From positions 1 to 19,651 of the forward strand of contig JACPQZ010000004.1 in NCBI GenBank assembly GCA_016190205.1: a stretch of 19,651 bases of DNA. The letters run 5' to 3'. How positions within the stretch are numbered: the first letter of the stretch is position 1; each line of letters begins with the position of its first letter. The notes under the pieces are model-generated. The model worked only from the letters and a program-made list of their open reading frames with translations. It did no database searches and was not told the origin of the DNA. Shown in pieces: positions 137 through 18,747 of the stretch. The translations under genes and the position numbers were made by a program. This DNA comes from Candidatus Omnitrophota bacterium (lineage in GTDB: Bacteria; Omnitrophota; JACPQZ01).

Positions 137-2077
137 TTATTGAAACGCGATGGCAATGGTGAAGGTCTCTTGGTCGGCAGGCATGTCATCGGCAAAGGGC
201 GGGAAGGGCGAGGAACCTTTCACGCTCTGGATGACCAGGGGATCCAGAAGCTCGTTGCGCCGGGTCTGAATGTAGGGCTCGCCCACGAGGTAGCCGTCGC
301 GGGACAGGACGAATGAAACGCGCACCTCGCCCGCGCGGTGCGCCTGCGGCAGGAGGTGGGACAGGGCGTCCAGGATTCGGCGCCTTAGGAAATCTTCATA
401 GCGGAAGTGCGCCGCCTGAACGCTGTCAGCCTTCTCCTCTTTCATTTCCACAGGCGGCTCCGGAGCTTGTGCGGCCTCTGGTACGGCGCCATACACGCTC
501 CTCGCCATAAGTTCCTCTCTCTCCTTGGGGCCGACCCCGGACCCTTCATAGGAAAAAAACTCCTCTTCTCCCGTCACGATATGGGGAGTCACAAAAATGA
601 CGAGCTCGCTCTTGTCGATCTCCCTGTCTTCGGACCTGAAAAGGCCTCCCACAAATGGAAGTCCCCCCAGAAACGGCACCTCCTCCATGTCCACGTTTTC
701 GGTATCCTTGATGAGGCCCCCGATGATGACCGTATGCCCGTCCTTGACCACCACCGTGGTTTCGGCCTCCGACGTCGCAATGATGGGGACGGTAGTCCTA
801 GCCGTCTGCTGGGCAGTGGTGTTGGAGGTCGTATTGGTCGCCCCGATGACCAGCGTGCGCGCGACAGAGCTCACCTCGGGCTTGATCTTGATGGTCACAA
901 AACCATCCCGGTTTACGGTGGGCGTCACCCCGAGCTTGGTGCCCACCTCGACGAACTGCACTTCATCGGAGGTATTGGAGCCCCCCGAAGAGACCACCGT
1001 CTGCTGGGTCACGAAGGCCTCGTCCGCGCCGATCAAGATGCGCGCCTCCTGATTGTTGGCCACGAGGAGCCGGGGGCTCGAGAGCGTGTTCGTCTGGCCA
1101 AACGTCTTGAGGGCCTCTACCACGGTTGTCACATCTCCCCGCGCGAATGAGAGCGTGCTTAAACCGCCGGAACCGGCGTTAAAATCCAAATCCGCATCAA
1201 AAAAGGGAAGGGTCGGTGCGAACTTACTCTGAAGGGCTTGCGCAAACACATTCCAGTCTATCCCGAAGGCATAGTCGTCCGAGAGGGTGATCTCGATGAT
1301 CTTGGCCTCGATCAAGACCTCCGCCGTCTTCTCATCAAATTCCTCGACGAGCTTCGAGATGGTCGGAAAGCGTTCCGGAAGATCGGTCACGGCGATCTTA
1401 TTGGTGCGCTCATCACTCTTGATCTTCCCGATATTTTCGGTCAAGACCTTCTCCACTTCTGGCACGATGTCCTCCACCTTGCCATAACTTAACTTGTACA
1501 CGTGCGTCTCGGTGGGGACATCCATCTTTTCTACCATGCCCTTCATCTGCTCAATCCGGTCGGGGATATCGATGAGGACGACGGTGCTCGAACGCGGGTC
1601 CGTGATGACCTTCCCGATCTTGGTCTTCGCCTGATTGAGGGCTGTGGCGATATCGGTTACGTTCGCGTGTTGAACCTCGACGAGTTCCGCCCGGGTCTTG
1701 TCCTGAAACCGGTCGCCGTACAAAAGCTCGTAATCGCGGTCCGTCATCACCTTGATGATGTCATTCTTGATCTCGTAGGCCAGGTTATTGGTTTCCAGGA
1801 TGATGACAAACGCGTCCCAGGGGTCGACCTCTTTTAAAAAAAGGGTCACCCGCCCGCGCACATTGGCGCCCGCCACGATATTGAGGCCGCTCTTGATGGA
1901 CAAAAGCCGGAGGACGTCTAAGATATCCATGCCCTTGAGCTCCAGAGAGAGCTTCCCCGGCTGGCCGGGGGCCTCGTGAATCGCGTCGGCGCCTTCCTGA
2001 CCTGCGAGGGGGGCAATCCATGCTGAAGCGAGGACGCAGGCCCCCACGAATACCCTTCCCAATCTCCCCGGTCTCAT
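137..2077 (-). CDS. gspD: Type II secretion-type secretin with a fused C-terminal TonB-like domain
   Basis: Outer-membrane channel subunit of 646 aa. A hydrophobic signal segment spans about residues 8-26. A secretin/TonB short N-terminal (STN/N0) domain follows at about 45-112, then an N1 ring domain at 133-188, an N2 domain at 193-250 and the secretin barrel at 253-502. The barrel has the family signature VPFLGGLPFVGGLF at 467-480 and ends ELVIFVTPHIV. A Pro/Glu-rich linker at about 505-555 leads to a region (560-646) that reads like a TonB C-terminal domain: GEVRVSFVLSRDG, then LLDPLVIQSV, PFPPF and TFTIAIAF. This fusion is unusual. No AMIN peptidoglycan-binding domain is seen. GGGAGGG lies five bases before the ATG and overlaps the gspC-like stop. 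It is the last gene of the merR-exeA-gspC-gspD operon. I infer the T2SS label from that company; a second T4P secretin is the alternative. Confidence 0.9.
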   Translation of the reverse strand: MRPGRLGRVFVGACVLASAWIAPLAGQEGADAIHEAPGQPGKLSLELKGMDILDVLRLLSIKSGLNIVAGANVRGRVTLFLKEVDPWDAFVIILETNNLAYEIKNDIIKVMTDRDYELLYGDRFQDKTRAELVEVQHANVTDIATALNQAKTKIGKVITDPRSSTVVLIDIPDRIEQMKGMVEKMDVPTETHVYKLSYGKVEDIVPEVEKVLTENIGKIKSDERTNKIAVTDLPERFPTISKLVEEFDEKTAEVLIEAKIIEITLSDDYAFGIDWNVFAQALQSKFAPTLPFFDADLDFNAGSGGLSTLSFARGDVTTVVEALKTFGQTNTLSSPRLLVANNQEARILIGADEAFVTQQTVVSSGGSNTSDEVQFVEVGTKLGVTPTVNRDGFVTIKIKPEVSSVARTLVIGATNTTSNTTAQQTARTTVPIIATSEAETTVVVKDGHTVIIGGLIKDTENVDMEEVPFLGGLPFVGGLFRSEDREIDKSELVIFVTPHIVTGEEEFFSYEGSGVGPKEREELMARSVYGAVPEAAQAPEPPVEMKEEKADSVQAAHFRYEDFLRRRILDALSHLLPQAHRAGEVRVSFVLSRDGYLVGEPYIQTRRNELLDPLVIQSVKGSSPFPPFADDMPADQETFTIAIAFQ

Positions 2078-2088
2078 GCTTACCCTCC

Positions 2089-2733
2089 CTAAAATCTCAA
2101 ATCCATCTGCTCACCATCATACTCGAGGGTCACAACCCCCGGCCGGACACGGCTGATCCTGATCTCCCCCAGAAGATCGCCCTCATGCAAAAAGTAAGTC
2201 TGTTGGCTCTTCCGGTCCTGTATCATCGCAAGAGGAGGCGGGCCCTCTTCCACCCCCATGAGCGCGAGCGGCGCGGCGAGATCTTTGAGAAACACGCTTT
2301 TTTCAGGTTTTTCCGGGATGTCCTCATCCGGCACAGCAGGCTTAAAGAGCGCGCGCCCTTCCAGGGCGCGCACAAGCTCGCCCGCGCGCGAACCTTGGGG
2401 TGATGGCAGGACCGGGACCGGCGTTTCGCCCTGAAGCGCCTTGACCCGCTCCGAGAGTTTAAACGGCGCGGCTTCCTTTATCGCGATTTCATAAAAAGCC
2501 CATCCCGTTGCGGCCACAAACACAGCGATCAAGGCCTGGTTGAGCCACCCCGCACGCCTGCTTCGAAGCGCCCCCGCCTTGTGAGAGAGTATGTCGAATT
2601 TGAGATCCGACGTCTTTTTCACATCCAGCGCTTTCCCCTCTCCTGCCGGCCGCATCCCGGCGGACTTTTCTTTTCCTTCTTCGCCGCGGATAAGCCGCAG
2701 GAGACGCTCCTCGGGAGTCGGGTTAGAGGGCAT
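2089..2733 (-). CDS. gspC: GspC-like inner-membrane protein with HR domain
   Basis: A bitopic protein of 214 aa. A charged cytoplasmic N-terminus of about 60 residues precedes one membrane segment at 63-83, a Pro-rich periplasmic linker, and a C-terminal domain at about 150-214. That domain (LALMGVEEGPPPLAMI, then FLHEGDLLG, then VVTLEYDGEQMDL) matches the homology-region domain of GspC/PilP proteins, which docks on the secretin N0 domain. No PDZ domain follows, so it is a short form. It starts in an 11-base overlap with the end of the ExeA-like gene and stops 11 bases before the secretin gene, which fits a clamp between inner membrane and secretin. GspB, the partner of GspA/ExeA, is an alternative family label with the same architecture. 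Confidence 0.75.
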   Translation of the reverse strand: MPSNPTPEERLLRLIRGEEGKEKSAGMRPAGEGKALDVKKTSDLKFDILSHKAGALRSRRAGWLNQALIAVFVAATGWAFYEIAIKEAAPFKLSERVKALQGETPVPVLPSPQGSRAGELVRALEGRALFKPAVPDEDIPEKPEKSVFLKDLAAPLALMGVEEGPPPLAMIQDRKSQQTYFLHEGDLLGEIRISRVRPGVVTLEYDGEQMDLRF

Positions 2734-3550
2734 GAACAGGCTCTTCCCTGCGAACCAACTCGGAGATCATCTGGCTGTCAACGATCCTTTCCGCCGTCAT
2801 CACAAGCTGCTCCAGCGCGTTGTGGCAGATGAGGGCAATCCGCCTCGGGTACCCTTGCGTGACCTCGTATATCTTTTTGACGGCCTCATCCGTGAAGAAA
2901 AGCGTCGAGCTCGACCAGCCCGCCTTGCGCAATCTAAATTCTATAAGCTCACGCGTCTCCTGGAGATTCAGGGGGTTGATGATGTACTTGAGATTGATGC
3001 GATCTGTGAAATTCCGGATTCTTTGGACCTTCGGCAAAAGTTCCATTTGCCCAAAGATCACGAGCTGGAGGAGCTTATACTCATTCGTCTCGAAATTGAG
3101 AAGTATCCTTAAAATCTCCAGGATGTTCGGCGAGAGCTTTTGCCCCTCATCGATCAGAAGGACTACAGTCTTATCCTCCTCCACCCCTTTCTGAAACAGA
3201 AATTTTTCGATCGCTTCCTTATAGTCCAGCGTGGACCGGAACAAAGGCTCCGCGTTCAGGAGTTTTGTCACTAGATGCAGAAATTGATACTCGGACTTAA
3301 AATCTGGGTCCAGCAGGATGTGAAAAAGGTACTTTCCGTCGCCTGAAAACGCATTGACGAGACAGCGGGCTAACGTAGTCTTTCCCGTCCCCACATCACC
3401 CAATATAACTGAAAGCCCCCGCCGTAACCGGATGGCAATTTCGAGCCTTTGGAGCGCTTGATTATGCGCCATGGACTTATAAAAGAAAGAGGGATCCGGA
3501 CTCGTGGAGAACGGCTCCCTTGAAAGCCCCAGGTTTAGAAAATAACTCAC
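2723..3550 (-). CDS. exeA: ExeA/GspA-type AAA ATPase
   Basis: A 275-aa AAA ATPase with Walker A GDVGTGKTT at 51-59 and Walker B LLIDEG at 131-136. The opening YFLNLGLSREPFSTSPDP and the motif GQKLSPNILEILRILLNFE are characteristic of the ExeA/GspA family. In Aeromonas ExeA, with ExeB, helps place the secretin through peptidoglycan. Here there is no membrane segment and no C-terminal peptidoglycan-binding domain, so only the ATPase half is present, about half the length of Aeromonas ExeA. The start is GTG, overlapping the merR stop as GTGA, so the two are translationally coupled. Its place directly before gspC and gspD supports a role in secretin assembly. MSHA MshM-like or transposase-helper (TniB/IstB-like) ATPases are the main relatives to exclude. 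Confidence 0.8.
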   Translation of the reverse strand: MSYFLNLGLSREPFSTSPDPSFFYKSMAHNQALQRLEIAIRLRRGLSVILGDVGTGKTTLARCLVNAFSGDGKYLFHILLDPDFKSEYQFLHLVTKLLNAEPLFRSTLDYKEAIEKFLFQKGVEEDKTVVLLIDEGQKLSPNILEILRILLNFETNEYKLLQLVIFGQMELLPKVQRIRNFTDRINLKYIINPLNLQETRELIEFRLRKAGWSSSTLFFTDEAVKKIYEVTQGYPRRIALICHNALEQLVMTAERIVDSQMISELVRREEPVHAL

Positions 3551-7273: not shown

Positions 7274-8982
7274 CAGTCCCCCACCGTAACGCCCGCCACT
7301 TCCTCCAGGCTCGTGATCCCTCTTTTTGCCTTCTCGAGCCCGCTCTCCCACAGGGTCATCATGCCCGCTTTCTTAGACTCCTGCCTTAAAAGCTCCGCCC
7401 TGGGTTTCTCATTAATGACATTCTTAAGGGCCTCACTCACAAAAAACATCTCATAAATGGCGCACCGCCCGTGGTAGCCTGTATTCCGGCATTCCGGACA
7501 GCCCCTGGGTTTATAAATAGTGTGCCCCGCCAGGTTGAGCTTTTGGGCAAGCTCCGGCTTCGGCTCGAAAGACTCCCGGCAGTTCTCGCACAGGCGGCGG
7601 ACGAGCCTTTGGGCCACGACCAGGACCACGGCGCTTGAAACGAGGAAGGGCTCCACCCCGATGTCCACGAGGCGCGTGACGGCCGACGGGGCGTCGTTGG
7701 TGTGCAGGGTGGAGAGAACCAGGTGGCCCGTCAGGGCCGCCTTGACACAGATCTCGGCCGTCTCCAGGTCTCGCACCTCGCCCACCATAATGATGTCCGG
7801 GTCCTGCCGTAAAAAAGCCCTTAAGCCCGCCGCGAAGGTGAGCCCGATTTGGGGCTTCGTCTGCACCTGATTGACGCCATCGAGGCGGTATTCCACGGGG
7901 TCCTCGATGGTCAAGATGTTTTTTTCGGGAGTCCGGATACGCCTCAAGGCCGCATAGAGCGTGGTCGTCTTGCCGCTTCCCGTGGGGCCTGTAAGAAAAA
8001 CGAGGCCATAGGGCCTCTTGATGGCCCGCTCGAATAGGGCGAGATGGGCGGGTTCAAAACCCAGGTCTTCCAGGTTTTCCGGCATCGCGCCCTTATCCAG
8101 GATGCGGATCACCACCTTTTCTCCATAGATGGCCGGGATGGAGCTTACCCGCAAATCCACAAGCTTGTTGTCCACCTTAATGCCAAAGCCGCCGTCCTGG
8201 GGCAGGCGTTTCTCGGCAATGTCGAGCTTCGCCAGAATTTTCACCCGTGAGACCAGAGCAGGCAGAAGGGCCGTCGAGGGAGGCGGGATCTCATACAGGA
8301 CCCCGTCGATCCTGAACCGGATCACGACACGGCTTTGAAAAGGCTCTAGGTGGATGTCGCTCGCGCGGTCTTTGACGGCCTGCATGAGCAGGAGGTTGAC
8401 GAGCTTTACGACCGGCGCCTCTTCCGCCCGCGCGATCAGGCGGTCGAGCGAGAGCTCCTCCTTTTCAATGGTAATGGCCTCGACCTTGCTGTCGTCGGCC
8501 GAGTATGAGCTCTGCACGGCTTCTTTAAGAAAATCATGCGCTCCATAGATCTCGTTGATCGCGTTCTCGACGTCGCTCTTCGTGGAGATGACGGGGTTGA
8601 CCTCGCACTTGGCCATGCGGCGGACATTGTCCGTCGTCATGAGATCCAGGGGGTCCACGAAGGCGCAGGTCATGGAACCCAGGTGTTTGGAGAGAGGCAC
8701 CACGAGGTGCGACCGGGCAAACTCCTCCGGGATAAACTCGCGCAGGTTTTGGGTGATTGCCGGCTCTATGACGGAATGGGTGAGAGAAAGGTAGGGAATC
8801 CCCAGCTGTTTTCCCAGGGCATCCACGATGTCTTTTTCGGCCAGGACCCCGAGACGGACCAGGATCTCCCCAATCCTTCCGCCCTCCTGTTTCTGGGTCT
8901 CCGTGGCATGCACGAGCTCCTCCTGGGTGATATAACCGCCCTTAATAAGGAGCTCGCCCAGCTTGACCTTGGATTTTCTCAA
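7273..8982 (-). CDS. pilB: Type IV pilus assembly ATPase PilB (GspE family) with MshEN domain
   Basis: A 569-aa secretion ATPase. Residues 7-61 form an MshEN-type N-terminal domain with two 24-residue motifs (7-30 and 36-59) separated by five residues, the arrangement known to bind c-di-GMP. The catalytic core has Walker A GPTGSGKTT at 332-340, Asp box EDPVEY at 360-365, Walker B IIMVGEVRD at 397-405 and His box GHLVLSTLHTND at 419-430. A zinc tetracysteine motif uses C465, C468, C495 and C498. The start is TTG, overlapping the secretin stop as TTGA. It is kept because the MshEN motif begins only a few residues later. The neighbours pilQ, pilC, pilA and pilT favour PilB over GspE. Loss of the first motif's Arg (Lys7 here) is the only visible deviation. 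Confidence 0.92.
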   Translation of the reverse strand: MRKSKVKLGELLIKGGYITQEELVHATETQKQEGGRIGEILVRLGVLAEKDIVDALGKQLGIPYLSLTHSVIEPAITQNLREFIPEEFARSHLVVPLSKHLGSMTCAFVDPLDLMTTDNVRRMAKCEVNPVISTKSDVENAINEIYGAHDFLKEAVQSSYSADDSKVEAITIEKEELSLDRLIARAEEAPVVKLVNLLLMQAVKDRASDIHLEPFQSRVVIRFRIDGVLYEIPPPSTALLPALVSRVKILAKLDIAEKRLPQDGGFGIKVDNKLVDLRVSSIPAIYGEKVVIRILDKGAMPENLEDLGFEPAHLALFERAIKRPYGLVFLTGPTGSGKTTTLYAALRRIRTPEKNILTIEDPVEYRLDGVNQVQTKPQIGLTFAAGLRAFLRQDPDIIMVGEVRDLETAEICVKAALTGHLVLSTLHTNDAPSAVTRLVDIGVEPFLVSSAVVLVVAQRLVRRLCENCRESFEPKPELAQKLNLAGHTIYKPRGCPECRNTGYHGRCAIYEMFFVSEALKNVINEKPRAELLRQESKKAGMMTLWESGLEKAKRGITSLEEVAGVTVGD

Positions 8983-10631
8983 TGTTCGATCCCGTCGGTG
9001 AGGCGTTTGACGGCTTCGTCGATCTTAATCTCTCTCTCCTCGTGCGCGCCGGCGTAGTCCAAAAGACTCTGTTCCCTCTCTCCCATCCCGCCCAGGGCCG
9101 TCATTGCGTCCGCACCAGGCCGGTCCAGAGAAACGCTCACCTCACCCCCGGGGACAAACTCGCCTCCAGCCATGTGAAAATTGCTTTCCTGAACCACGTG
9201 GGGCGTGATGAACATGACAAGCTCCCGGTCGGTGTCGTTGTGGTCCACGCGCGTGAACAGATATCCGACGAGCGGCATGTCGCCCAGGAGGGGCACCTTG
9301 CGGATGGTCTCGGTGTTGTCTTTGCTGATTAAGCCGCCGATCACGATGGTCTCACCGTCGGTGACGCGCACGGTGCTCTTGCTGCTGCGGATGCGAGGAT
9401 CCAGGAAGGAGGCCCCGGAAAGGCCGGTGGGTTTGGTGTCAATCACGGACGGCTCCACGAGCATCGTGATGTATCCGAAATCGTTCACCTGCGGCGTGAC
9501 GCGCAGGGAAATACCGGTCTCGACGCGCTCGGCCGTGTTCTGCGCCTCCGCACCCAGCCCCGAAGACGTCTCCGCCACGGTCGTGACATTGGCAATGGAC
9601 GCCTGGGTCGTGAGCTTGATGACCGCGGCCTCATTGGCCAAGGTCAAGATGCGCGGCCGGGCCAGGATCTCGGTATCCGTATTTTGGGTCAAGAGATCCA
9701 AGGTCATGTCCAAACTGTTGAAGCCCAAGGTGCCGGCCGTGATGGTGCCGTCGGTCCCTTTGTTAAACTTGCTCAAACGCCCTATCCCCAGATTGAACGG
9801 CCAGGAGGTGGGCCGGCTCGCCCCTGAGGCGGTTAGGACTTCTCCATCCGTGCCCGTGCCCCACTCAAACCCGATGTCATCCACTATCTGGGTGGTCGTG
9901 TCGAGGATATCAGCCGCGATCATGACCTGCGGGGTGCGGCTGTCCAGGCGCGCAATCGTCTCTGCGATTGTTTCCATGCGCTCCGGGGTGTCCGTCACAA
10001 TGAGGCTATTGGTCCTCTGGTCGGCCACGAGCTTGCCGTGCTCGGAGAGCATTTCTTCTATGACCTTATCAATCCCCTCCGTCGGCTCGCCGGACTGTTC
10101 GAGCTCAAGGGAGGGCAAAAGCTGGGATGTGGCCCCGCCGGACGAGCCCCCCAATGAGGTTCCGGCACCACCCCCCTGCACCGCAAACCCGAACCCGGTC
10201 ACCCGCGCGTACTGAAGCTTAAAGATACGCGTCTCCGTGGGGACATAGGCCGCCGGCGGCTCATCTACGATAAAGATGTCGCTTTCTTCGAGCTGGCGGT
10301 ACGTGAGGCCTGTGGCGTTGATGATGGAGGTGAGGGCGTCTTCCACCGAAACCTCAGATACATAGAGCGTCACCTTTCTCTCCTTGACCTCCTCCCCGGC
10401 AATAAAATTAAGCCCCGACTGCTGGGAAAATGCCTTGAGGAGGTCCTTGAGTTCGACCTCCTGCATGTTCATGGAGATACGCGGGATGGAGGCTTGAGCC
10501 AGGTCAGGTGAGACATCGGCCAGGCTGGCGAGCTGTATCGCTTCGCCGGCGTGGATTAGGGAGGGTCCGATCAAACCCGTCCCGGGTGTGGTCAGCAAAA
10601 GAAATGTCAGGAAACAAGCGGTCGTTTTCAT
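8979..10631 (-). CDS. pilQ: Type IV pilus secretin PilQ (short form)
   Basis: A 550-aa outer-membrane secretin. A signal peptide covers about residues 1-28. An STN/N0 domain lies at about 52-124 (ELKDLLKAFSQQSGLNFIAG), then an N1 domain at about 133-228 with a Gly/Ser-rich insertion at 152-166, then the barrel at about 235-480. The barrel carries the signature VPLLGDMPLVGYLF (446-459) and ends LVMFITPHVV. It is short for PilQ because no AMIN peptidoglycan-binding domains precede N0. A charged tail of about 60 residues follows the barrel. AAAGGGGTGAG just before the ATG is the ribosome site. It follows the pilP-like gene across a spacer holding heptamer repeats and overlaps pilB by four bases. 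Assignment to the pilus rather than the secretion system rests on this context. Confidence 0.9.
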   Translation of the reverse strand: MKTTACFLTFLLLTTPGTGLIGPSLIHAGEAIQLASLADVSPDLAQASIPRISMNMQEVELKDLLKAFSQQSGLNFIAGEEVKERKVTLYVSEVSVEDALTSIINATGLTYRQLEESDIFIVDEPPAAYVPTETRIFKLQYARVTGFGFAVQGGGAGTSLGGSSGGATSQLLPSLELEQSGEPTEGIDKVIEEMLSEHGKLVADQRTNSLIVTDTPERMETIAETIARLDSRTPQVMIAADILDTTTQIVDDIGFEWGTGTDGEVLTASGASRPTSWPFNLGIGRLSKFNKGTDGTITAGTLGFNSLDMTLDLLTQNTDTEILARPRILTLANEAAVIKLTTQASIANVTTVAETSSGLGAEAQNTAERVETGISLRVTPQVNDFGYITMLVEPSVIDTKPTGLSGASFLDPRIRSSKSTVRVTDGETIVIGGLISKDNTETIRKVPLLGDMPLVGYLFTRVDHNDTDRELVMFITPHVVQESNFHMAGGEFVPGGEVSVSLDRPGADAMTALGGMGEREQSLLDYAGAHEEREIKIDEAVKRLTDGIEH

Positions 10632-10665: not shown

Positions 10666-10703
10666 CGTACTGCGTACAGCGTACTGCGTATTGCGTACTG
10701 CGA
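10666..10703. repeat. Tandem heptamer repeat in the pilP-pilQ spacer
   Basis: Five tandem 7-base units of the form CGTACTG (variants CGTACAG and CGTATTG) run from 10666 to 10700, followed by a partial unit. The same family occurs inside gspK about 8 kb away. It lies in the 80-base spacer between the pilP-like gene and the pilQ ribosome site and so becomes part of the transcript. Confidence 0.85.
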
Positions 10704-10711
10704 TACTCTTC

Positions 10712-11362
10712 TTAATAAGAAGGCTCGGCGTCCGGCTCATATGGCATGCCTGGACTGTAGGCCATCCCGCTGTCGAGCCTTCCTCCCTCGTCCTTGTCGT
10801 ATTGCGAACGAACCGCCAGGACGAAATCCTTTCCTTTATATTCCACGTGCACGCCCTGCGCATCCAGGCCCGTGATGAGCGCGCCCTGAACAGTGTCTCC
10901 CACGCGCACGACCTGATTACCGATAATGGCCTGGGCAGGCTCCACTCCCCAAATAAGCCCCTTCACCTCCAATTTGGGCGGTTCCACAGGTAAATCGATG
11001 GGGACCATGAGTGGAGTCTCCGCCGCCGGCGGGCCGACGGGCCCGGGCGGAACAGGCTTGGGTTTAGTGAGAAGTGCGATCAGGGCCTCTGGTTTCTGCA
11101 GGGGGTCACGATACCCATGACCCTCATAGGCCACCTCCTTCAAAACATCCCCTCCTTTTTCAGGCCCGGCCTCGCCCTCGACCGGACCGGGGGCCGCTTC
11201 CTCATCCGGTCGTTCGGCGGCAGTAATCATCTGCTGAATCTCGCCGGCCCGTTCTTCATTGCGCGACTTCGAGTGCCCCCGTGCGATACTGCGCACCAGC
11301 ACAAGCCCAAAGACCGCGAGGAGTGCCGCGACAATGAGGAGCTCCCGCTTCTGTCTATCCAT
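10712..11362 (-). CDS. pilP: PilP/GspC-like inner-membrane protein
   Basis: A 216-aa protein with one N-terminal membrane segment at about 8-24 (ELLIVAALLAVFGLVLVRS), a long charged and Pro-rich linker, and a C-terminal beta domain at about 128-188 (PKLEVKGLIWGVEPAQAIIGN, quoted by its ends, then VVRVGDTVQG and VEYKGKDFVL). That domain matches the HR/PilP fold that contacts the secretin N0 domain. Classical PilP is a lipoprotein; no lipobox cysteine is present here and the anchor is a membrane helix, as in GspC. The ATG overlaps the stop of the upstream helix-turn-helix gene by eight bases. It lies directly before pilQ, the expected partner. The short tail after the domain is Tyr/Pro/Asp-rich. 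Confidence 0.75.
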   Translation of the reverse strand: MDRQKRELLIVAALLAVFGLVLVRSIARGHSKSRNEERAGEIQQMITAAERPDEEAAPGPVEGEAGPEKGGDVLKEVAYEGHGYRDPLQKPEALIALLTKPKPVPPGPVGPPAAETPLMVPIDLPVEPPKLEVKGLIWGVEPAQAIIGNQVVRVGDTVQGALITGLDAQGVHVEYKGKDFVLAVRSQYDKDEGGRLDSGMAYSPGMPYEPDAEPSY

Positions 11363-11582
11363 GATTGTTGCTCTCTCGTTCGTGCGACAGGACAGGCCTG
11401 CGGATCATATTTTTGTACCTCAATAGTTTCTGGATATCCGAGGGCGTAAACAACCTGAAGTTGTTACGGTCCCGGTAGACCTCGGGGATCTTGCCCTCCC
11501 GCAGCCATTTGTAGAGCGTGTTGCGCGCGATCTTTACCCGCCGGAGCACCTCTAGCGTGGTGTAGAGCTTTTTGGTCATCAT
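11355..11582 (-). CDS. Small MerR/excisionase-like helix-turn-helix regulator
   Basis: A 75-aa protein with a MerR-superfamily (HTH_17/excisionase-like) DNA-binding fold. TTLEVLRRVKIARNTLYKWL forms helix-turn-helix at about 8-27, followed by a wing (NNFRLFTPSDIQKLL, about 40-54) and a basic tail. The open frame extends upstream to 11753 but the extra 57 residues look non-coding. The double ATG at 11582/11579 fits the domain start and lies about 50 bases downstream of a good promoter. No strong Shine-Dalgarno site is visible. It overlaps the pilP-like gene by eight bases and so leads the operon ending in pilQ-pilB-pilC. I infer a regulatory role for that operon; it could also be structural DNA-binding debris from an excisionase. 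Confidence 0.7.
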   Translation of the reverse strand: MMTKKLYTTLEVLRRVKIARNTLYKWLREGKIPEVYRDRNNFRLFTPSDIQKLLRYKNMIRRPVLSHERESNNHG

Positions 11583-11640
11583 ATTCAAGCTATACCAAGG
11601 TTCATCAACTTCGACTCGCCATAAGTCTAGGATGGCAGTC

Positions 11641-11669
11641 AGTATCCCATAGCCCCGCCTAGGCGTCAA
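11641..11669 (-). promoter_or_regulatory. Promoter of the HTH-pilP-pilQ-pilB-pilC operon
   Basis: On the minus strand -35 TTGACG (11664-11669) and -10 GATACT (11641-11646) are separated by 17 bases. Transcription would start near 11634, about 50 bases before the HTH gene. The 10-bp palindrome CGCCTAGGCG (11656-11665) overlaps the -35 and spacer, where MerR-type regulators bind. Confidence 0.5.
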
Positions 11670-11671
11670 GG

Positions 11672-11696
11672 TCAAATGGCTTGCAGGTTCAAATGG
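11672..11696 (-). repeat. Pair of 8-base direct repeats upstream of the promoter
   Basis: On the minus strand CCATTTGA occurs twice (11689-11696 and 11672-11679), 17 bases apart start to start. The second copy ends two bases before the -35 hexamer. The rest of the spacer 11583-11765 shows no gene or clear terminator. An activator site is inferred from position alone. Confidence 0.4.
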
Positions 11697-11765
11697 AGTG
11701 AAAGGCAAAACTAGTTGTGGGGTTCTTGATCGGGCGGCGGGTAGAAGACCCACAAGGGATGGGGA

Positions 11766-16061: not shown

Positions 16062-17524
16062 CGCTTATCCCCGCCGGACTGCTTTTTAAGAGGGCAGTCG
16101 ATTTGAAAATCCGCGAAATCCTGCCCCTGGCGCTTGCGCGCAGTGGCATATTTCACCTCCACCTTTTCAAAGAGCTCGGATTTTTCGAGCGCATCCCTCG
16201 CCCGAAATACTGTGGCCAGATCATCCGTCGTCCCCCGCAGAGAAATCTCCTTGCCCTCATCAAAGGTATAGTGGGTGAATGTAACCCCCTGCGGAACGAC
16301 ACGGAAGAGCTCCGCCAGGGTCTCGAGACACTGATGGCGCCGCGCCAAGGCCCCGTGGATCCTCACCAGCCGTTCAGACAGGGTGCGCACCTCCTTCGCC
16401 TGGGGATCCGTTTCCGCAAGCCGGGACTTAAGAAAACGAAGGTAATCCTGATGGGCGGCGAGCCTCGCCATCCCCAGGGTGCCGAATGAAAAAGTGATGC
16501 CCAAAATCACGATAACCCTGAAGAGGAGCTCCCTTCTCTTGCGGTCGCCGTGCCGGCGGGCCTGCCATTCTTCGGGGAGAAGGTTCACCGTCCCGCGGGG
16601 ATCCTTAAGACACGCCCCCACCAGACCGGAAAAGCTGAACCTTTTCAGGTGCTCGGCCCAGGACACGCCCTTCGCCGCGGGGTCCCGGAATGAATCCACG
16701 AGATCCATATGGACAGGCGTGATTCCTATCAGGGACTTTGTCCTTGCGACGATTGTGGCAAGCCCCGGAAAACCCCGTGTGAACACCACCCTTTGAAAGG
16801 GGGGCGCCGGGTCCTGCTTCCGGTACGCCCGCAGCGTCATGGCAAGTTCCTCGAGCAGGCGGTCATTCCAAGCGTCCTGACCCTGCGGATCGCGCCCGGC
16901 GTCCTTCGTGCCGAAGCCGATATTGCGGGTAAAGATGAGCTTCCCCTGATGCACGACAGCCACCTCGACCTCGGCCTCACCCACGTCCACAAGGCAGTGG
17001 GTAAGCGCACGGTCCCTGGGATTCAGTCCATTGAGATAGGCTGCGGAGAGGGTCTGGGAAGAAAGGAGCGCGCGCTCCGGTACGAGCCCGGCCTCTTTCA
17101 GCAGGTTAAGCTGGGTGTCGATAAAGGCACGGGGGATAATAACGAGCATCGCCACCGTGTACCCCTGGGCGTCTACCGCAATCTTTTCGTAATCCACCGA
17201 TATCTCGTCCCGGCTGAACGGGATATGGCGCACGGCCTGAAAGCCCGCCATTTGCGCGAGCTCCTCATCTTTTACGGAAGGCAGCCGGACCATCTTGATG
17301 GTCGTCTGCTGACGGCCCACCACCAGCACCTTGCGCACGGCGCGGACCCGAACCCCCAGCTTCTTGACGGCCTCCGAGAGAACAGCCGGCCGATCTTTTT
17401 CAGGAACGCCCCCCAGGGACACGACGCCCGCGGCCTTTATCTTGCGCCTTCCCGTGTCCAGGAGCACGACCTTCACCCCATCGTCGCCCCATCCGATCGC
17501 CAGCACCTCGCCCCGGCCCATCAC
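16058..17524 (-). CDS. gspL: GspL-type protein built as a PilM-PilN fusion
   Basis: A 488-aa protein. Residues 1-310 form an actin-like PilM/GspL cytoplasmic domain (LAIGWGDDGVKVVLLDTGR; MAGFQAVRHIPFSRDEISVDYE, 92-113 quoted by its ends; CLVDVGEAEVEVAVVHQG). VNLLPEEW at 313-320 is a PilN-type INLLP peptide. A membrane helix at about 334-355, a coiled coil (about 360-395) and a PilN-like domain (LAELFRVVPQGVTFTHYTFD, ends at L403 and D422) follow. The C-terminus is DCPLKKQSGGDKR. It can start at GTG 17524 or the ATG three bases later; AGGAGG upstream serves both, and the gspK stop overlaps them. Its place after gspK and before gspM makes it the GspL of this system. It looks like a duplicate of the pilus fusion at 12399-13976. 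Confidence 0.88.
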   Translation of the reverse strand: MMGRGEVLAIGWGDDGVKVVLLDTGRRKIKAAGVVSLGGVPEKDRPAVLSEAVKKLGVRVRAVRKVLVVGRQQTTIKMVRLPSVKDEELAQMAGFQAVRHIPFSRDEISVDYEKIAVDAQGYTVAMLVIIPRAFIDTQLNLLKEAGLVPERALLSSQTLSAAYLNGLNPRDRALTHCLVDVGEAEVEVAVVHQGKLIFTRNIGFGTKDAGRDPQGQDAWNDRLLEELAMTLRAYRKQDPAPPFQRVVFTRGFPGLATIVARTKSLIGITPVHMDLVDSFRDPAAKGVSWAEHLKRFSFSGLVGACLKDPRGTVNLLPEEWQARRHGDRKRRELLFRVIVILGITFSFGTLGMARLAAHQDYLRFLKSRLAETDPQAKEVRTLSERLVRIHGALARRHQCLETLAELFRVVPQGVTFTHYTFDEGKEISLRGTTDDLATVFRARDALEKSELFEKVEVKYATARKRQGQDFADFQIDCPLKKQSGGDKR

Positions 17525-18747
17525 ATGAAGCCCTCCTGCCAGCGCCGCACCGTCAGGGTGGGTTTCGTCCCGCCCCCCCGCTCCACGAGGGCCCGGACGA
17601 GATAACGCCTTTCGGGATTTTCCAAAAATCCCCAGGAGGCTATTTGGAAAAGGCGGGAGGAAACCGTCAGGTAATGTTCGGCCATGTGGTCCATGAGACG
17701 CCTTTCCTCCGTGCCCAGAAGAAGCCGGCTCATATCGCCTTTGATATTCTGGAAGGGTTCGTCGCCTTCAGTCCCCTCCTCATCATCGAAGCCGTCCCGG
17801 TGGTCTATGATGCGCTCCACTAAGTGCTCGATATCGCGCTCGAGGCCGCCCACCTGGTCGAAAGAGGCGCGCGCCAGGACCTCGAGGACCGGCGCGGGGG
17901 CCGTGTTGATGTTCACCTTCCCGTCGCCGTACACCGTGAGCATGGGCTCAATCTCACGATAGACCTCATCGGTCATTCCCAGAACGAGCCGCAGTTCCTC
18001 CATGGCCTGAAACGGGGCATTCTTGCAGGAAAAGGCAAGCTCCTCGTACTGCTCCTGTTCCGCCCCAAAGGGTTTTTCGTTTCCCGACTCATCCAACAGA
18101 GGATCGTCATTCTTATCGCGCCAGTCAATCATGGCCGATGCCAGCGACGGGGTTACTCCCGGGAGGGCGGCGAGCAGCTCGAAAGGTGCCAAGTTGACAT
18201 TGATTTTGCGTTCCTCGTCGGTAAACCCTGGTTTCAATATCCACTTTCGGCTTTCTCGCACCGCATGGGAAATGGTGAAATACCCTTGACCAACGGGCAG
18301 TCTCTGAAACACCTTGTCCGGCTCCTCTTCATCCTCAAGGGTGATCCCGCATTCATACAGGCTGTCATAGGCATTCGCATCCTGTGCGAGCTGGGCAAGG
18401 CTCCATGAGAACCCTGCAAAGGCGAGTTCCCTCGCCACCTTGACGTCGCGCTTGTAACCCGCCATCTTGATGAGAAGCCCCATGCGGTAACCTATCCCGA
18501 CGGCGAACAAGGCCAGGATGGATACGACCCACAGCGTAATGATAAGGATGGTTCCGCGCTCGTACTGCGTACTGCGTACGGCGTACTGCGTACGGCGTAC
18601 GGCGTACTGCGTACTGCGTGAAAGTTGAGAATGGGTTTTCGTTCGCTGTACGCACGACGCTGTACGCTGTACGAATCCCGCTCGCCCCGACGCCACGCTG
18701 TACGCTGTACGCTGTACGCTGTACGAACCTTTATCTTTAAAACTCAT
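17521..18747 (-). CDS. gspK: GspK minor pseudopilin with a repeat-expanded leader
   Basis: A 408-aa protein of the pseudopilus tip. The hydrophobic segment TILIITLWVVSILALFAVGI begins at residue 66, and Glu5 is absent, as is normal for GspK. The helical domain follows, with the two characteristic motifs KINVNLAPFELLAALPGV and KVNINTAPAPVLEVLA. The ATG overlaps the gspJ stop by 11 bases, which supports it as the true start. The leader is therefore 65 residues instead of the usual ten or so. Between an ordinary MSFKDKG and ERG it consists of heptamer-repeat translation such as STQYAVRRTQYAVR and VQRTAYSV. The insertion keeps frame, so the gene looks intact, but processing of so long a leader is uncertain. 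No start codon lies between the repeats and the hydrophobic segment. Confidence 0.88.
   Translation of the reverse strand: MSFKDKGSYSVQRTAYSVASGRAGFVQRTASCVQRTKTHSQLSRSTQYAVRRTQYAVRSTQYERGTILIITLWVVSILALFAVGIGYRMGLLIKMAGYKRDVKVARELAFAGFSWSLAQLAQDANAYDSLYECGITLEDEEEPDKVFQRLPVGQGYFTISHAVRESRKWILKPGFTDEERKINVNLAPFELLAALPGVTPSLASAMIDWRDKNDDPLLDESGNEKPFGAEQEQYEELAFSCKNAPFQAMEELRLVLGMTDEVYREIEPMLTVYGDGKVNINTAPAPVLEVLARASFDQVGGLERDIEHLVERIIDHRDGFDDEEGTEGDEPFQNIKGDMSRLLLGTEERRLMDHMAEHYLTVSSRLFQIASWGFLENPERRYLVRALVERGGGTKPTLTVRRWQEGFM
18561..18620. repeat. Heptamer array A inside gspK
   Basis: Eight tandem 7-base units CGTACTG or CGTACGG run from 18561 to 18616 and end in a partial unit. Because 7 and 3 share no factor, three units encode a seven-residue period, seen as TQYAVR repeats in the GspK leader. 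Confidence 0.92.
18644..18726. repeat. Heptamer arrays B and C inside gspK
   Basis: Units CGCTGTA occur at 18644, 18658 and 18665, with a degenerate copy CGCACGA at 18651, and again four times in tandem at 18696-18723. The two blocks are separated by a GC-rich 20-base spacer. They encode the VQRTAYSV and VQRTASCVQRT parts of the leader. The unit is a rearranged relative of CGTACTG. Confidence 0.88.

Follow-up and report, generated by a model that had tools for sequence, protein, structure and literature searches.

Secretin #1 of the window, by which we mean the whole stretch of DNA analyzed here (one entire contig of 19,651 bases belonging to a 1.65-Mb genome), serves an Omnitrophota bacterium as the outer-membrane channel of its T4P/T2SS-like machine, and it ends beyond its barrel in a disordered linker followed by a domain of the TolA/TonB C-terminal type. 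We describe the architecture, fold, conservation, selection and distribution of this tail, and propose, as a preferred reading held with slightly less than even confidence, that it acts as a docking arm which tethers or positions the secretin by gripping, through strand addition, a peptide from a different protein of the envelope. The Omnitrophota are uncultured and for the most part ultra-small, and their T4a and Tad pili are suspected of serving a predatory or parasitic way of life (PMC10066038); close relatives of secretin #1 were found almost exclusively in Omnitrophota records. Beyond a few model systems, it is not settled by what means secretins are placed and retained in the envelope; a tail kept on a T4P/T2SS-like secretin across much of a phylum, and recurring on Tad secretins, offers a testable handle on how such machines are fixed in place.

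The layout of secretin #1 and its neighborhood is summarized in the table below. The full-length structural model consisted of N0, N1 and N2 domains, a barrel ending at residue 501, disorder across residues 502-546 and an ordered domain at residues 547-646. Both secretin families of Pfam exceeded their cut-offs, Secretin (PF00263) with 157.8 bits against 27.5 and Secretin_N with 80 bits against 28.2 over two stretches. Scores against the NCBI class models fell below the respective cut-offs for both GspD (TIGR02517, 242.1 against 351.35) and PilQ (TIGR02515, 235.6 against 284.35). Instead of the N-terminal inner-membrane helix of a TonB energy transducer, secretin #1 has N0-N2 and the barrel. 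Across the family, the linker between barrel and tail spanned 13-149 amino acids (median 43) and was enriched in K, E and P.

Features of secretin #1 and neighboring genes (positions in the window; residues are those of secretin #1)
Feature	Position	Strand	Basis
Secretin #1 with TolA/TonB-type tail, 646 aa, uninterrupted frame	137..2077	-	ORF list, Pfam
N0/STN-like domain, residues 43-112	1742..1951	-	Sub-threshold Pfam STN/N0; secondary structure of model
N1 and N2 (Secretin_N) domains, residues 129-250	1328..1693	-	Pfam Secretin_N x2; model
Secretin barrel region, residues 253-501	575..1321	-	Pfam Secretin 322-501, E 2.5e-46; model
Disordered Pro/Glu/Lys-rich linker, residues 502-546	440..574	-	pLDDT 41-55
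TolA/TonB C-terminal-type domain, residues 547-646	140..439	-	Pfam, PDB profile search, structure models
Gly-Glu-Pro (GEP), residues 599-601; proline 601 marks the secretin-tail subtype	275..283	-	
PFPPF motif, residues 624-628; common to the phylum's TonB family proteins	194..208	-	
GspC/GspB-like periplasmic protein, upstream of secretin, operon partner	2089..2733	-	Weak Pfam T2SSC, E 1.8e-3; conserved synteny
ExeA-like AAA ATPase without peptidoglycan-binding half	2723..3550	-	AAA-type Pfam matches only; conserved synteny
Secretin #2 (PilQ-like), without TonB-type tail	8979..10631	-	Pfam, NCBI models, tail HMM

An earlier, sequence-only reading of this DNA had placed a TonB-like domain behind the barrel, at residues 560-646. 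For the window protein by itself, the Pfam evidence was marginal. TonB_2 matched residues 564-634 with an E value of 1.8e-3 in the full protein and of 6.8e-5 (23.4 bits, cut-off 22) when residues 500-646 were scanned alone; its score depended on how much was scanned: 22.4-23.4 bits for the tail alone, 21.9 for a 105-aa fragment and 18.8 for the whole protein. TonB_C stayed below threshold (20-21 bits against 24.6), and the Pfam search proposed in that reading as a check hence succeeded in part, for TonB_2 with the tail scanned alone. When the window tail was combined with 54 relatives from genome contigs, TonB_C matched 50 of the 55 tails and TonB_2 matched 47, with a best E value of 2e-9. Searched against all PDB sequences, a profile of the tails retrieved H. 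pylori TonB (6sly with E 5e-9, 5lw8 with 2e-8) and HasB (2e-3).

The structure pointed the same way. The AlphaFold model of the tail, built from the 55 sequences, reached a mean pLDDT of 87.7 and ran helix-strand-(short strand)-helix-strand, its long helix beginning at about residue 547. As measured with VIA-align, the model superimposed on V. cholerae TolA domain III with a Z score of 11.2 (97 residues, 2.3 A), on P. aeruginosa TolA with 10.9 and on H. pylori TonB with 8.4 over 85 residues, the first unrelated chain following at 4.5, which places the tail within the TolA-III/TonB-CTD fold. Foldseek agreed, with 6sly as its best match. The tail is thus nearest to TolA-III by fold and nearest to TonB-type profiles by sequence, and we refer to it as TolA/TonB-type, an identity that rests on the Pfam matches of the relatives, the PDB profile search and the structure taken together. 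The domain called from sequence was therefore confirmed, as was the TonB-type fold that structure prediction had been expected to recover; the start of the domain was set too late, since the long helix at about residue 547 opens it.

The tails of the secretin #1 type form a recognizable subtype. The GEP proline occurred in 90% of the tails of this type, and also in the PilQ-type tail and both of the giant coiled-coil proteins described below; it did not belong to the residues commonly seen at the same site in 23 stand-alone TonB-type domains, 10 Tad tails and 2 TolC-like proteins. In a tree of the domains, which has few columns and is poorly resolved, secretin #1-type tails clustered apart from stand-alone TonBs and Tad tails. 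In the tail model the proline lies close to the second strand, a short one, and the binding surface may accordingly differ from that of TonB.

We then asked how widely the fusion is distributed. A first scan of genome contigs with the window protein as single query gave no match. In a sample of 285 genomes spread evenly over the Omnitrophota, 191 had a secretin match with an E value of at most 1e-60. Taking the best secretin per genome and assigning classes by reading the match rows (from match range, open-frame length, or sequence ends scored with a tail HMM), the tail was present in 67 and absent in 63 of the 130 judgeable genomes, among the matches listed. The architecture, described from sequence as unusual, is indeed so, but it is not unique to the window's genome and is common in the phylum. 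A tblastn search of two fused secretins against 72,556 plasmid records returned no record covering 80% of either. Since the survey covered Omnitrophota genomes and plasmid records, confinement of the fusion to the phylum cannot be claimed.

The tail is under purifying selection, weaker than that on the barrel: dN/dS in close pairs was 0.08-0.38 for the tail and 0.03-0.16 for the barrel part. On a FastTree phylogeny built from 120 secretin cores, with tail columns excluded, presence and absence of the tail required 8 state changes, compared to 29.6 with shuffled labels. These 8 changes are consistent with a single early gain followed by several losses, without proving it. The sequence-only reading had named a sequencing frameshift joining two genes as the result that would overturn it. 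Interrupted copies do exist, three with in-frame stops and one with a poly-A frameshift, but the same continuous frame in dozens of independent genomes from many families, together with the purifying selection on the tails, rules out a frameshift or chimera and leaves an artefact next to no chance.

The interrupted copies deserve separate mention. An in-frame stop separates the barrel from an otherwise intact tail in L041 (3262-3266, TAA), L048 (7650-7654, TAA) and L070 (7352-7356, TAG), and a poly-A frameshift lies at about 830-863 in L161; decay, readthrough, slippage or sequence error are possible causes. The 67 tail-bearing genomes include three such interrupted copies, two of them with in-frame stops and the third with the poly-A frameshift. 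L059 (3355-7041) holds a single frame of 1229 aa with secretin, tail and GspE ATPase, a topologically odd arrangement that is probably an assembly error near the junction. Other secretins (L027, L168, L170, L171, L173 and L174) end about 65-80 residues past the barrel in a short conserved peptide, DKxKGxKEY, which is possibly a docking peptide.

The same type of domain was found on other Omnitrophota proteins by searching the genomes with the tail profile and inspecting the retrieved regions. It is found on secretins containing T2SS-T3SS_pil_N, where TonB_C matched with E values from 3e-8 to 2e-22; because two of their loci are flanked by RcpC/CpaB on one side and by ParA/MinD-type and T2SSE ATPases on the other, we assign these secretins to the Tad/RcpA type. 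Single C-terminal copies occur in L216, L217, L218, L219, L220, L221 and L229, L227 has two copies in 1021 aa, and L228 is a further domain-bearing case. The Tad tails belong to a different subtype, mostly with YPPFP and without the GEP proline. A PilQ-type secretin with the domain (L222) adjoins PilO and GspB-like genes. Two TolC-like outer membrane efflux proteins have a TonB_C-type domain at the N-terminus (L223, 2608-4437, with a HlyD-like gene after it; L224, 2558-4399), and two giant coiled-coil proteins end in the Pro-marked domain (L225, 2907-10949, 2681 aa; L226, 3350-6001, a 1055-aa frame). In the genome of L225 (G038), a tail-less paralogous secretin is followed by a TPR gene and then by the 2681-aa protein. 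The recruitments by T4P/T2SS-like and by Tad secretins, at least, seem to have been separate events. We consider it plausible, though we lean somewhat against it, that TolA/TonB-type domains serve as a general docking tag of Omnitrophota trans-envelope channels, attached separately to T4P/T2SS-like, Tad and PilQ-type secretins, TolC-like proteins and giant coiled-coil proteins, and gripping a common envelope partner. If so, the topology of Tol and Ton would be reversed, with the gripping domain hanging from the outer-membrane channel.

The operon context was similar with and without the tail. The order ExeA-like ATPase, GspC/B-like protein, secretin was found in most sufficiently long loci of either class, and the ExeA-like protein measured about 270-320 aa beside fused and plain secretins alike; a few ExeA frames reach 340-380 aa, as measured from the preceding stop codon. 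No stand-alone TonB-type gene, as expected of a split version, was found in the flanks of plain loci, except for the giant coiled-coil gene of G038. The sequence-only reading was correct that, in the window, no AMIN domain is present and the ExeA-like ATPase lacks a peptidoglycan-binding half (Pfam). Its suggestion that the tail compensates for these absences did not hold up, since ExeA is equally short in plain operons, meaning that the tail does not track loss of the ExeA half, and since tail charge is not conserved. Likewise rejected was the idea that the tail replaces an S-domain, as tail-less close relatives stop 6-80 residues past the barrel and show no substitute.

As for how a docking arm would work, secretin topology places the root of the linker on the periplasmic side of the outer membrane. 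Each subunit would present a TolA/TonB-type docking domain on a flexible linker leaving the barrel, and a complete secretin ring, with at least a dozen subunits, would thereby be fringed with such domains in the upper periplasm. As TolA and TonB do, each domain could take hold, by strand addition, of an extended peptide belonging to a second envelope protein, and the grip would tether or position the channel. Target binding by strand addition is established for the C-terminal domains of TolA and TonB (PMC12204202, PMC11658791), and the fused domain retains the fold and the long final strand on a disordered TonB-like linker. That Tad secretins, TolC-like proteins and a PilQ-type secretin have recruited the domain type separately suggests a generic docking function for outer-membrane channels; the purifying selection on the tail, its retention across families and the G038 locus also favor docking. 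It counts against the proposal that 63 of the 130 judged secretins do without the tail, so that it is not essential to a working channel, as do the possible change of binding surface near the proline and the partner comparison below. An anchoring or positioning role had been suggested from sequence as well; tethering or positioning remains our preferred reading, stripped of the compensation argument that had led to it.

Other functions were weighed against this proposal. The tail might bind peptidoglycan directly and anchor the secretin in the cell wall, as would suit an operon whose ExeA has no peptidoglycan-binding half, the absence of AMIN, and linkers that are, at 13-149 aa, long enough to reach the wall; in Aeromonas, contact of ExeA with peptidoglycan is required for secretin assembly (PMC4098917). 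However, ExeA-like proteins have the same short length beside fused and plain secretins, the net charge of the tail is not conserved (median +1, range -7 to +13), and a review assigns the peptidoglycan contact of the Ton system to ExbD, not to the C-terminal domain of TonB (PMC11658791). With no specific support for peptidoglycan binding by the tail, we rate the wall anchor as unlikely. The tail could also aid assembly in cis, protecting, pairing or targeting subunits as pilotins or the S-domain do. TonB C-terminal domains are capable of pairing, the tail occupies the same C-terminal place as the S-domains of other secretins, and a paralogous secretin (L035, 1312-3414) has TPR repeats at its C-terminus in place of the tail; the known T4P pilotins are TPR proteins. 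Against this, tail-less close relatives manage without a substitute and the disordered linker argues against a fixed seat on the barrel, and we judge such a role unlikely.

The remaining candidates involve partners whose presence was compared between 33 fused and 27 plain genomes. ExbD-type proteins occurred in 59 of the 60, equally with plain secretins, and were therefore uninformative. In one reading, the tail would connect the channel with a proton-driven motor of the ExbBD/TolQR type, either by itself or paired with a TonB or TolA protein, and the motor would gate or move the channel. The wide presence of ExbD-type proteins would suit this, as would a TonB-like and a TolA-like protein encoded in the window's genome; yet the fused domain lacks the inner-membrane helix through which TonB and TolA meet the motor, and we find this coupling improbable. 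Docking of TonB-dependent receptors is highly improbable. Although TonB C-terminal domains bind the TonB boxes of receptors (PMC11658791) and most genomes encode a Plug domain protein, Plug domains showed no association with the fusion (25 of 33 fused versus 22 of 27 plain genomes; Fisher p 0.76). Eight fused genomes, some well covered (97% and 94% complete), had none, and we rejected these receptors as an obligate partner. TolB was likewise set aside: TolB_N matched none of the 60 genomes while three control genomes gave matches, a result compatible with a diverged TolB. In sum, none of ExbD, Plug and TolB_N tracks the fusion.

Secretin #1 resembles GspD and PilQ secretins (PF00263 plus Secretin_N) in its N0-N1-N2 domains and barrel, and their operons in its GspC/B-like and ExeA-like neighbors and the pilus genes of the window, but it has no S-domain, closes with a linker-borne TolA/TonB-type domain and scores below the NCBI GspD and PilQ cut-offs. 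With TolA domain III and the TonB C-terminal domain (PF13103, PF03544, PF06519) the tail shares its fold, sequence motifs and a preceding disordered, charged, proline-rich linker; in contrast to these, it hangs from an outer-membrane channel rather than an inner-membrane helix and bears the subtype-specific GEP proline. TolA/TonB-type domains are hence not limited to inner-membrane force transducers. PorE of Bacteroidetes, a proposed tether between outer membrane and wall, also joins Tol-Pal-type domains genetically to a secretion part, but its parts are CpoB-, TolB- and Pal-like instead of a TolA/TonB tail on a secretin (PMC12204202). As in Aeromonas ExeA/ExeB, ExeA-like and GspB/C-like genes adjoin the window secretin, whereas the Omnitrophota ExeA-like proteins lack the peptidoglycan-binding half (PMC4098917). 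In the literature searched, which included few subscription journals, we found no published description of a secretin-TonB-type fusion or of a link between TonB-type domains and type II secretion in Omnitrophota; papers pairing secretin with TonB C-terminal concerned other subjects, judging by title and abstract.

Two further observations concern the rest of the window. Within its pilus cluster, between the PilO-like and PilP-like genes, 11355-11753 (minus strand) encodes a MerR/HTH_17-type DNA-binding protein. Tandem repeats of heptamers (CGTACTG; ACGCTGT) lie at 10666-10707, 18561-18619 and 18695-18725, upstream of or within the annotated starts of two genes, and the true start of the gene at 17521-18747 (minus strand) is probably further downstream.
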